From Clostridiales bacterium DTU089 (GTDB taxonomy: Bacteria > Bacillota > Clostridia > Oscillospirales > Acutalibacteraceae), in NCBI GenBank assembly GCA_001513045.1, contig LFSB01000013.1, positions 1 to 45,009 on the forward strand: a DNA stretch of 45,009 nt, written 5' to 3'. Below are positions 6,032 through 38,871 of this stretch, piece by piece; within the stretch, counting starts at the first letter, position 1; the number at the start of each line of letters is the position of its first letter. Under the pieces are notes generated by a model, which made no database searches, had not been told where the DNA came from, and saw only the letters and a list, made by a program, of their open reading frames with translations. Both the position numbers and the translations under genes were made by a program.

Positions 6032-6107
6032 GAGCCATTAGCTCAGTCGGCAGAGCACCTGCCTTTTAAGCAGGGTGTCCGGAGTTCGAATCTCCGATGG
6101 CTCACCA
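6032..6107 (+). tRNA. tRNA-Lys (anticodon UUU), CCA encoded
   Basis: A complete cloverleaf of 76 nt. The acceptor stem GAGCCAT pairs with ATGGCTC, followed by discriminator A and a genomically encoded CCA. The D-arm is GCTCAGTCGGCAGAGC. The anticodon stem CCTGC/GCAGG encloses loop CTTTTAA with TTT at 6065-6067. The T-arm is CGGAGTTCGAATCTCCG. It decodes AAA and AAG lysine codons. Confidence 0.97.
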
Positions 6108-36293: not shown

Positions 36294-37652
36294 TTATTTC
36301 CAGATGAACCATATAAGCAGATATCCCGTAATGACAGCCGAAAGAGTAAACGGTATGCCGTATTTCATGAAGGTTCCCGCCTTGACCTCGTAGCCCTCTT
36401 TGCGGAGTATTCCGATTCCGGCTATATTTGCCGAAGCACCTATCGGGGTGAGGTTTCCGCCGAGCGTTGCACCGCAGAGCAGGCCGTAATAGAACAGCTT
36501 AGGGTCAACCTGGGTTCCGCCTGCCGCGGAAAGACTTGAGGCAATAACCGCAACAACCGGAAGCATGGTTGCCGTGTAGGGGATGTTATCAATGAATGCC
36601 GAAAGTATTACAGACATCCATACAATAATTGTATACATAAGGAAGACCGAGTTTTCTCCGCCTCCGCCGATTCCGGCGATAAGTGTTCCGATTTTATCAA
36701 TAACTCCGGCGCGCGTGATTCCGCCGATTACAACAAAAAGACCCGCAAGCAGCGTGATTGTGTAGTAGTCGATTTCCTTGAAGGCGCCTTTGACGACAGA
36801 AAAATTCTTGGTTTTGACAACCTCGCGTATAAGGCCGATTGCGAAGTACAGCATGCATATCAGACCGTTTGTGATGTCGGGCTTGTAAAATTCGCCGGGA
36901 GCGGCGTTGCTTTTGTAGGGGATAAAGGACACGGCAATAAGAGTTACAACGGTTGCAACGAGGAGTATTGACGGGATTTTATCATCAACCTGCGTTCTGT
37001 CGTTTATTTCAATACCTGCTTTTTCCTTTCGGAACATCAGAAGTATTATAAGTCCGCTGACGAGTGCGCCCGCCTCAACGACAAAGAACATTCCGACACG
37101 TCCGTTGTCCACAAAGAAGTCGGTAAAATCAAGGTTTGCAGCCTTACCGAGCAATATCGAGGTTGTGTCGCCGACGAGGGTTGCGGCTCCCTGAAGGTTT
37201 GATGAAACAGCGATGCAAACTATACTCGGCACAGGTGAGATTTTTATTTTTTTGCAAAATGCAAGAGCTACGGGGGCAATCATAAGCACTGTTGCCACGT
37301 TGTCGACAAATGCGGAAATGATTCCGGCAAACAGCGAAAGCGCCAGCACAGCCCATTTGACATTAGGCATTTTTGAAATTAACACGTCGGACATCAGCTG
37401 CGGCATCTTTGATTCAATAAATAGATATACGGTGCCCATTGTGCCGGCAATCATCATAATGACGTTCCAGTCGATTTCACCGAGCGCATCGAGAAAGGTG
37501 TATGAAAATCCGTCAAAAACCGAGAGACTTCCGAGCACCACAAACAGTACGGCAGAGGCAACGGCGACATAAGGCCGGATTTTCTGAAACGAGAGCATCA
37601 GTATGTAGGTCGCTGCAAAAATAATCAGGGAAACAACGGTAACGGTATCCAT
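36294..37652 (-). CDS. ArsB/NhaD-type ion transporter (probable Na+/H+ antiporter)
   Basis: 452 residues with about 11-12 membrane helices in two inverted halves, as in the ion transporter superfamily (ArsB, NhaD, SLC13). Each half has its re-entrant motif: SAFVDNVATVLMIAPVALA with GDTTSILLG, and SAFIDNIPYTATMLPVVAVI with GGNLTPIGASANIAG. The Asp-Asn pairs are cation-binding in NhaD-type proteins. The ATG at 37652 follows GGAAGG by six bases; the longer in-frame reading up to 37916 translates the structured leader and is not protein. NhaD function is favoured but arsenite or dicarboxylate transport is not excluded. Expression is probably controlled by the leader attenuator. Confidence 0.85.
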   Translation of the reverse strand: MDTVTVVSLIIFAATYILMLSFQKIRPYVAVASAVLFVVLGSLSVFDGFSYTFLDALGEIDWNVIMMIAGTMGTVYLFIESKMPQLMSDVLISKMPNVKWAVLALSLFAGIISAFVDNVATVLMIAPVALAFCKKIKISPVPSIVCIAVSSNLQGAATLVGDTTSILLGKAANLDFTDFFVDNGRVGMFFVVEAGALVSGLIILLMFRKEKAGIEINDRTQVDDKIPSILLVATVVTLIAVSFIPYKSNAAPGEFYKPDITNGLICMLYFAIGLIREVVKTKNFSVVKGAFKEIDYYTITLLAGLFVVIGGITRAGVIDKIGTLIAGIGGGGENSVFLMYTIIVWMSVILSAFIDNIPYTATMLPVVAVIASSLSAAGGTQVDPKLFYYGLLCGATLGGNLTPIGASANIAGIGILRKEGYEVKAGTFMKYGIPFTLSAVITGYLLIWFIWK

Positions 37653-37933
37653 AAAACGCCTTCCTTTTTTAAATGATTTGCATAAAATAAAAGCCGAGCC
37701 GACATTCAGGCTTTCAAAAAATGCTTTTTGAAAAGCGGCGGAGTCGGTTCGGTAATGCCGTATTACACAGGGAGAAGCCCGGACTTTCTCAACCGAGTTG
37801 CGGCAAAACAAAAACGGAACCCACAAATTTTTGTGAGTCCCGTCAACAAGGCGCAAAAACGCACTGTTGACCAATAATAAATAGAACACCGCAAGGTGCC
37901 CTATGACAGACTCCACCTCTTATTATCAGGTCG
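37653..37933 (-). ncRNA. Structured 5' leader, candidate transcriptional riboswitch
   Basis: RNA runs right to left. P1 is a long helix (37920-37932 with 37869-37880) enclosing a hairpin (37895-37904 with 37881-37890, GCAA-side loop) and a 15-nt one-sided bulge (37905-37919). The bulge contains GAGUC, complementary to GACUC at 37835-37839. That GACUC is also part of a 12-bp hairpin (37816-37827 with 37830-37841), so the two pairings are exclusive. A small hairpin lies at 37772-37790. The 3' part is an attenuator: terminator 37682-37714, antiterminator 37743-37752 with 37694-37703 (9 of 10 paired), and anti-antiterminator 37791-37796 with 37744-37749. Class unknown; a sodium- or other ion-sensing riboswitch would suit the transporter downstream. 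Confidence 0.6.
37682..37714 (-). terminator. Attenuator terminator in the ArsB/NhaD leader
   Basis: Minus-strand AAAGCC (37714-37709) pairs with GGCTTT (37695-37690), followed by TTATTTTATG. It overlaps the antiterminator strand 37694-37703, and lies 30 nt before the start codon. Confidence 0.65.
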
Positions 37934-37939
37934 TTATAA

Positions 37940-37968
37940 ACTATAACAGAGCCGACGCGTCATGTCAA
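37940..37968 (-). promoter_or_regulatory. Promoter of the ArsB/NhaD leader and gene
   Basis: Minus-strand TTGACA (37968-37963), a 17-nt spacer and TATAGT (37945-37940). Transcription would start near 37933, exactly before the P1 helix. Confidence 0.85.
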
Positions 37969-38125
37969 CATCTTTTGACAAAAAGCGGCAAAATAAATGT
38001 CAATAATATTGCAGATTTGTCAATTGCCATTTCGCAAAAGCATATTGAAGTGTCGAAGCGTTTATGATATTGTCATATTGACGGGAAGGTGCGGGCGTAC
38101 CAAGCCTCTCTTAACATATAAAAAG

Positions 38126-38211
38126 GTAAAACAATAGGCAGGGCGGTTCTGTATCCTGGCGCTACCCGAAAGCCGGAAGCGTCAAAGGATACGGAGCCTT
38201 CTCTGTTTTAC
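38126..38211 (+). ncRNA. Structured leader RNA upstream of the surface protein gene (class unknown)
   Basis: A closed three-stem structure. P1: GTAAAACA (38126-38133) with TGTTTTAC (38204-38211). An asymmetric internal loop follows (11 nt / 5 nt). P2: 12 bp, 38145-38156 with 38187-38198, including G-U pairs, so stacked helices form without perfect repeats. P3: GGCGCT (38158-38163) with AGCGTC (38178-38183), and a 14-nt loop containing CCGAAAGCCGG. The ribosome site AAAGGGA is 16 nt past P1, allowing translational control. It does not match any riboswitch consensus I can recall. The stretch 37969-38125 upstream shows no gene and no convincing promoter. Confidence 0.5.
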
Positions 38212-38241
38212 GGATAATTTTTATCGAAAGGGATGACAATC

Positions 38242-38871
38242 GTGAATGGACGGGATTTACTCAAGCTCTTTTTCCCTGTTTTGCTGATTCTTTTGCTTTT
38301 GCCCGTAAGTGTGATTGTCTCCGGTGCCCAGAGTTGCGGAGATGTGCACATGCCGGGAGATTGGATTGTTGACTCGGCGGCGACTGTGTCAACAAAGGGC
38401 GAACGGCATAAGGAATGCACAATATGCAGTGCGGTTCTTGAGGTTGAAGAAATAGAAAAGCTGTCACCGGCTGTAATAAAGGGACAAAACGGAAAATGGA
38501 AGCGCGGAAGCGGCGTTTCGCTCTCTTTCACATCAAATGCTCCGGTGGGGGATTTTACAGGCTTGTTCGTTGACGGGAAGCGTGTGGATGAAAAAAATTA
38601 CATACTGAGCAGCGGGAGCACGGTGGTGGAGCTGAAAAAGGAATACCTTGAAACGCTCTTGTCAGGTAAGCATCTTATGACAATAAGCTCCGGAACCGGG
38701 GATGCACAGACAAACTTTACAATTGAGCAAAAGGTGTCATCCGATTTTTCATCCCCTGACACGGGAAGCGTGTTCTCACCGCTGATATGGATTGGAATAT
38801 TGTTTGTGTCGGTGCTTACGCTTACGGGCTTTGAGCTTGACAAAAGACGCAAGAGCAAATCTGAAAAATAG
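38242..38871 (+). CDS. Small sortase-type (SPDTG) surface protein
   Basis: 209 residues. Signal peptide: basic RDLLK, hydrophobic LFFPVLLILLLLPVSVIVSG, cleavage near SGA. The N-terminal part has a Cys/His module (HMPGDWIVDSAATVSTKG, then H-x3-C-x2-C and LEVEE) seen in many surface proteins of gut Clostridia. A beta-rich domain follows. The C terminus is a sorting signal: SPDTG at 171-175, a hydrophobic helix (PLIWIGILFVSVLTLTGF) and a basic KRRKSKSEK tail. SPxTG-type signals are known sortase substrates in Clostridioides. GTG at 38242 sits 8 nt after AAAGGGA; an ATG at 38233 is too close to the ribosome site. The ligand is unknown. Confidence 0.75.
   Translation: MNGRDLLKLFFPVLLILLLLPVSVIVSGAQSCGDVHMPGDWIVDSAATVSTKGERHKECTICSAVLEVEEIEKLSPAVIKGQNGKWKRGSGVSLSFTSNAPVGDFTGLFVDGKRVDEKNYILSSGSTVVELKKEYLETLLSGKHLMTISSGTGDAQTNFTIEQKVSSDFSSPDTGSVFSPLIWIGILFVSVLTLTGFELDKRRKSKSEK

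Follow-up and report, generated by a model that had tools for sequence, protein, structure and literature searches.

A bulged two-helix leader RNA as a candidate riboswitch class upstream of ion-transport and energy-related genes in Clostridia

The 45,009-nucleotide stretch of Clostridiales bacterium DTU089 analysed here (the window) carries on its minus strand a gene for a 452-aa membrane transporter of the CitMHS/ArsB type (IT superfamily; 36294 to 37652; Pfam CitMHS 2.6e-50, ArsB 2.6e-6), the profile of which gives weak matches to INDY/VcINDY and ArsB structures in the PDB. Its ATG, at 37652, is preceded by a long leader, and the question raised by the locus is what this leader does. An original prediction took it for a cis-regulatory RNA of no known class that attenuates transcription 5′ of the transporter gene, built from a closed multi-helix domain and a downstream three-state attenuator. 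Its general outline held up in our analysis: the sigma-70-type promoter TTGACA-17-TATAGT (37940 to 37968, minus strand) agrees with the consensus at 11 of 12 positions, the whole leader is strongly structured (-100.6 kcal/mol, z -5.8, with 0/200 shuffles that low), and a transcription-attenuation RNA does appear to lie in front of the gene. The architecture that emerged from relatives is a different and smaller one.

The comparison started from 80 loci with homologues of the transporter gene, many of which have the same stretch 5′ of the start codon and some of which end before the upstream region. Model R1 was made from alignment A1, comprising 44 sequences aligned by sequence only. A strong covariance-model match (E 2e-9 or better) was found in 38 of the 80 loci, most of which had been input to model building and so match by construction, and the 20 most distant homologues (L097-L116) yielded no strong match; five further model matches among 99 loci were the window and four relatives. 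When 98 relative genomes were searched at the DNA level with 37950-37650 as the query, the only matches were of 19-36 nt, at E 4.4e-5 and weaker, and those with E below 5e-4 fell in the bulge region described below. Because this search also found the core 5′ of other genes, a wider search was started, which led to alignment A3 (96 matches in 95 distinct rows, window included). Excluded from the counts as weak were L139, L147-L149, and L046 (L046 and L147 match on both strands, and L149 is the same place as L147), and left out as repeats were L001-L004, L013, L015, L016, L079, L089, L117-L120, L126, L128, L133, and L143.

What is conserved is a domain of 64 nt at the 5′ end of the transcript (37932-37869, minus strand), consisting of a helix P1, a 15-nt bulge in the 5′ strand, and a hairpin P2, with both helices identified by folding and covariation. 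The 5′ strand of P1 (37920 to 37932), from which U37928 is bulged out, lies a few nucleotides from the predicted transcript start and pairs with the 3′ strand UUAUUAUUGGUC (37869 to 37880), giving GACC.GAUAAUAA/UUAUUAUUGGUC in the window, and P2 (37881 to 37904) reads AUAGGGCACC-UUGC-GGUGUUCUAU. The 3′ side has no unpaired nucleotide between P1 and P2, and the bulge thus hangs off one strand. This bulge (37905 to 37919), GAGGUGGAGUCUGUC in the window and GNGGUGGAGUCUGUC as the consensus of letter counts in 95 distinct instances, is nearly invariant, 12 of its 15 positions being identical in at least 93 instances, position 1 in 92, and position 14 in 91, with position 2 alone varying freely (69 U, 20 C, 5 A), in a set gathered with patterns or models that contain the bulge and hence biased towards conserved bulges. 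As delimited by the model, the same instances are 72-89 nt long. The P1-P2 portion of the window folds alone at -19.4 kcal/mol, and with a z of only -2.1 and 6/200 shuffles as good, folding energy by itself is modest evidence.

Covariation is more informative. In A1, 87.9% of the P1/P2 cells are paired (shuffled mean 74.9, 0/500 shuffles that high), and the values for A2 and A3 are 91.4% and 90.4%, compared with 38-51% in slid controls (38-47% for A1 alone); A2 and A3 were fitted to the model and lean towards the structure, a tendency of which A1 is free. Two-sided changes occur in 18 of 20 pairs in A3, and the covariation score of 0.624 exceeds both the shuffled value (0.229) and the slid values (at most 0.130), so that P1 and P2 strongly pass the check in homologous leaders that the original prediction had proposed for its structure. 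P2 contributes 98.0% paired cells and two-sided changes in 6/7 pairs on A3. The bare count of two-sided-change pairs is less telling, being equalled by 28/500 shuffles on A1 and 8/500 on A3, and RNAalifold on the plain alignment A1 recovered P2 and did not recover P1. The low P2 pairs U-A and A-U have changed jointly to C-G and C-G in about ten loci, which belong to two families (L162, L164, L166-L168, L170-L174). A conserved, covarying, structured domain in the 5′ leader, as is looked for in a riboswitch, is therefore present.

Downstream of this domain lies an intrinsic terminator, a hairpin at 37844-37813 (-20 kcal/mol, z -5.3, 0/200 shuffles as good) with a U-rich tail (37807 to 37844 in all, minus strand). 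Its 5′ arm, GACGGGACUC (37835 to 37844), is the complement of bulge bases 37914-37905 (duplex -9.3 kcal/mol), and pairing of arm and bulge is mutually exclusive with closure of the terminator. The two competing pairings of GACUC (37839-37835) that had been noticed earlier are thus real alternatives, one with the bulge and the other inside the hairpin. The same relationship recurs among relatives, in which 63 of 94 leaders have GRCRGR, a complement to the UCUGUC of the bulge, in the 5′ arm of their strongest terminator, as against 71/1267 other terminators in the same loci and window. For hairpins of -11 kcal/mol or better the figures are 60/85 leader terminators vs 39/637 others; the leaders share kinship, and no probability is therefore attached to this enrichment. 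The sites are concentrated where the terminator hairpin begins. Between element and gene, at least one site occurs in 30/36 CitMHS leaders with a known gene start (shuffle expectation 4.7) and in 41/48 leaders of a second set, 46 of them non-CitMHS (expected 14.1). A minimal case is L145, with the terminator GACAGGC-GAAA-GUCUGUC, the 3′ arm of which is a copy of the bulge, and L129, L167, and L174 have two successive terminators with a bulge complement. The GRCRGR site is absent from the chosen terminator arm in 31/94 leaders, and bulge variants in L071, L087, and L088 are, by eye, without matching changes in the arm. Since the bulge is invariant, two-sided covariation of the bulge/arm pairing cannot show. 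A statistic based on the longest run of pairs anywhere in the arm was set aside for its high background (68/97 vs 433/1522 at six or more pairs), and the specific six-base complement was used instead. The complementarity points to an expression platform that would be exclusive with pairing of the domain's conserved bases, a further feature of riboswitches.

In 76/98 distinct leaders vs 6/98 single shuffles, no more than two mismatches separate the best sigma-70 promoter from the consensus, and the end of its -10 box lies 14-21 nt 5′ of the bulge in 86/98 leaders. A promoter at this near-fixed distance from the bulge implies a transcript start at about the first bases of P1, and the 5′ end of the transcript is accordingly placed near the 5′ edge of P1 in the window and its relatives. 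The fold, the upstream promoter, the terminator, and the bulge/arm complementarity are established by sequence comparison, and we consider it probable, with some reserve, that together they constitute a cis-regulatory RNA of a new class that works by transcription antitermination and is most probably a riboswitch. Transcription would begin at about the 5′ edge of P1, and P1 and P2 would fold, leaving the bulge exposed. Its 3′ part, GGAGUCUGUC, would pair with the downstream GRCRGR site (in the window the arm at 37844-37835), producing a pseudoknot over P2 such that the terminator could not close and the gene would be read; failing this pairing, transcription would end at about 37813-37807, some 120-126 nt from the predicted start. 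The choice between pseudoknot and terminator would be made cotranscriptionally and the balance tipped by a ligand at the bulge, which may thus serve as both putative ligand site and antiterminator strand. Of the two modes of action, stabilisation of the pseudoknot by the ligand (an ON switch) seems to us a little more probable than sequestration of the bulge (an OFF switch). Competition between the terminator and a pseudoknot formed with a downstream segment is how fluoride (crcB) and other pseudoknot riboswitches operate, and the element may work in a comparable manner; it differs from the fluoride class in having no Rfam match to it and no crcB-type gene among those found here.

The genes that follow 100 kept matches were CitMHS (44), HppA membrane pyrophosphatase (18), PiT phosphate carrier (16), TrkH (5), pyruvate kinase (4), ABC exporter (2), LPG-synthase-TM/flippase-like (2), and one each of GltD-like, OadB, and Na/Pi symporter, with the remaining 6 matches lacking a gene (contig ends, broken or missing genes). 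CitMHS is over-represented in this tally, as 41/44 were obtained via that gene or the window and some matches are near-identical; the families were named by Pfam and NCBIfam on ten representatives. Among 20 longer stretches, L202, L204, L205, and L207 have DUF47, flippase-like, TrkH, and TrkA genes downstream of PiT, in subsets that differ from locus to locus (Pfam names confirmed on L202 and L204). A second copy of the element in the genome of the window (L203) precedes a GltD-like gene and then OAD_beta (Pfam 7e-154), so that the beta subunit of a Na+-transporting decarboxylase occurs in two separate contexts (L145 and L203). L202 (G201:C6:18000-30000) contains two copies about 4 kb apart in one cluster, the first 5′ of an ABC exporter pair and the other 5′ of a PiT-DUF47-flippase-TrkH-TrkA run. 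By eye, decayed or misassembled targets were seen in L169, L172, and L159, in which the element is followed by a pyruvate-kinase C-terminal-like fragment, a broken pyrophosphatase gene, and a transposase-like gene, respectively. The gate residue of HppA was considered as a Na+/H+ discriminator and proved not decisive. It is Asp in 15/15 fragments that show the pattern, from among 18 HppA loci (motif DLFDSNVA; L127, L131, L136, L144, L146, L151, L156, L161, L162, L165, L167, L170, L171, L173, and L174), whereas Glu stands there in Na+ pumps and K+-independent H+ pumps, and the ion moved by these pyrophosphatases is consequently not readable from the sequence.

With its pumps and carriers that generate or exploit Na+ gradients, or that move K+ and phosphate, the wider gene set makes a monovalent cation, Na+ first, our leading guess for the putative ligand and renders the ion-sensing idea of the original prediction more plausible. 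The full version of this reading is put forward tentatively, as it stands well below an even chance. In it, a new natural riboswitch class, almost confined to one order of gut and rumen Clostridia, would detect a monovalent cation (as a second Na+ class or a K+ class) at its one-strand bulge and, by way of the pseudoknot of bulge and terminator arm, bring under joint control pyrophosphate-driven pumping, the Na+-decarboxylase, uptake of K+ and phosphate, and pyruvate kinase. The gene set is mixed, with pyruvate kinase, lipid-flippase-like, ABC exporter, and GltD-like genes in it, and this counts against the antitermination riboswitch. The same device might respond instead to phosphate or pyrophosphate, Mg2+, pH, or a nucleotide or energy signal, a variant that we regard as a serious possibility if still short of likely: PiT, the Na/Pi symporter, membrane pyrophosphatase, and pyruvate kinase each have a part in phosphate or energy metabolism, whereas TrkH-TrkA, the Na+-transporting decarboxylase beta subunit, and the CitMHS/DASS-type carriers better fit ion homeostasis. 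LicT-, PyrR-, and HutP-type proteins recognise their own RNA elements, and a small, simple, nearly invariant stem-bulge before unlike genes of a scattered regulon, almost within one bacterial order, would also suit a lineage-specific RNA-binding (anti)terminator protein that recognises P1-bulge-P2 and coordinates that regulon. We judge this rather unlikely, as no nucleic-acid-binding protein was seen among the products of the first downstream genes or, by eye, of the neighbours in the 20 longer stretches.

An improbable alternative is that the element is the target of a trans-acting small RNA or the site of ribosome/leader-peptide attenuation. A frame from GTG 37916 is open through the window leader, but the lengths of the motif fall into all residues modulo 3 (36, 27, and 32 of 95), so there is no conserved frame across the element, and covarying P1 and P2 around the bulge favour a shaped site over a linear target. 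Least probable of all, in our estimate, is the arrangement first envisaged, namely a large domain for which 37917-37909/37745-37737 is the closing helix, together with a three-state attenuator (37796-37682). The closing pairing, GGUGGAGUC/GACUCCGCC, is strong (-18.3 kcal/mol) and part of the minimum-energy fold, and GACUCCGCC (37737 to 37745, minus strand) is a second possible complement of the bulge, observed solely in the window and with no comparative support. However, relatives share this part only as short, weak matches (E 6.9e-4 or weaker below 37812), which leaves the downstream attenuator without comparative support, and the fold conserved in the 95 instances uses the same bulge bases otherwise, in the smaller P1 (37932-37920/37880-37869) and P2 (37904-37881) domain. 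The terminator named for that attenuator, 37682-37714, is weak (-6.2 kcal/mol, z -0.9, 31/200 shuffles as good), the strong one being 37844-37813. Its antiterminator, 37752-37743/37694-37703, can indeed form, and the segment 37753-37680 folds at -22.7 kcal/mol (z -3.5); however, CUUUUAUUUU follows directly, and the stem could equally be a second terminator (37684 to 37752, minus strand, stem 37752-37743/37703-37694 and then a U-rich tract), again observed solely in the window, lacking comparative support, and adjoined by the second bulge complement.

The antitermination riboswitch that we favour would also be new to the catalogues, in line with the earlier inability to place the leader in a class. 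No Rfam 15 family scored above chance over the element when the whole library (4227 models) was run on the window at gathering score, on 37550-38250 at E up to 10, and on sets of 6 and 12 loci with an E limit of 1, and these scans gave no match to Na+-I (DUF1646), Li+ nhaA-I/II, yybP-ykoY, M-box, fluoride, c-di-AMP, or T-box models. The sub-threshold matches include no riboswitch family, being CRISPR-DR8 on the opposite strand (15.9 of 39 bits, E 2.3, in 37550-38250) and rli42 at the 3′ edge of the L129 element (26.8 of 80 bits, E 0.042). A tRNA gene at 6032-6104 was the sole gathering-score match in the window. The segment 37790-37771 has what we take to be a resemblance to a conserved RNase P RNA block, a candidate dropped for want of an RNase P match in Rfam. 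At 20 loci of motif-less transporter relatives, scanned at gathering score, no known riboswitch was positioned 5′ of the gene; three c-di-GMP-I and two molybdenum riboswitches were detected, all on the opposite strand, the former upstream of motif-less CitMHS homologues (L106 1736-1816, L107 1717-1798, and L114 1718-1799, minus strand). A Bacillota metagenome contig (L099) has a match to Rfam sRNA_1300, named as an Enterococcus sRNA, at 301-518 (131 bits).

A literature search, outside which lay most subscription papers and preprints, returned no description of the motif or of a riboswitch with this gene set. A close likeness is the Na+-I class (DUF1646 motif), likewise a transcription-terminating leader RNA of ion-carrier genes, including oxaloacetate decarboxylase, and described as an ON switch (PMC9337991). 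Its conserved nucleotides, as given in the main text of that paper, lie at the base of P1 and in the loop of P2, whereas here they form a one-strand bulge between P1 and P2, and that same main text names no trk, ktr, or pyrophosphatase genes (PMC9337991). The Li+ riboswitches nhaA-I and nhaA-II are also leader RNAs of ion-transporter genes, but the genes reported in the relevant passages are nhaA (PMC9646797), of which there are none among the genes found here. The trpB and fhsA motifs are likewise orphan candidates that have terminator hairpins and may use antitermination or pair as pseudoknots but belong, in the sections concerned, to other genes and other lineages (PMC11109978); sections 11-13 of that article contain no motif with this gene set, and its supplements hold further candidates. 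As a candidate class absent from Rfam 15, the element combines a compact, easily synthesised domain with a clear expression platform and with genes that mostly fit together around ions and energy, so that the ligand can be tested for with a small panel of ions. It could also provide a handle on poorly understood carriers of uncultured gut Clostridia, such as the CitMHS-type transporters and the Asp-gated membrane pyrophosphatases.

In covariance-model searches the element was almost confined to one order of Clostridia, presumably Oscillospirales. Matches were found in 23/300 genomes in the family to which the window belongs (E up to 0.01, the match in G149/L139 being weak), in 7/21, 10/63, and 17/400 genomes of three other families of the order, and in 21/295 genomes of the order, with overlap among the genome samples and stricter filters for the large ones. 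At the level of the class, 6/391 genomes matched, one being the window's own, one in its family, and two weak, and in a phylum-wide sample the single match among 199 genomes was the window's own. In one scan of viral contigs the core had no exact match. Outside the order, the element is present in two genomes of the class (L145 and L146), with matches in 1/4 and 1/1 genomes of their families, which were picked because of prior matches. The matching contigs are labelled Ruminococcaceae, Oscillospiraceae, or Clostridia, and many are from rumen and gut.
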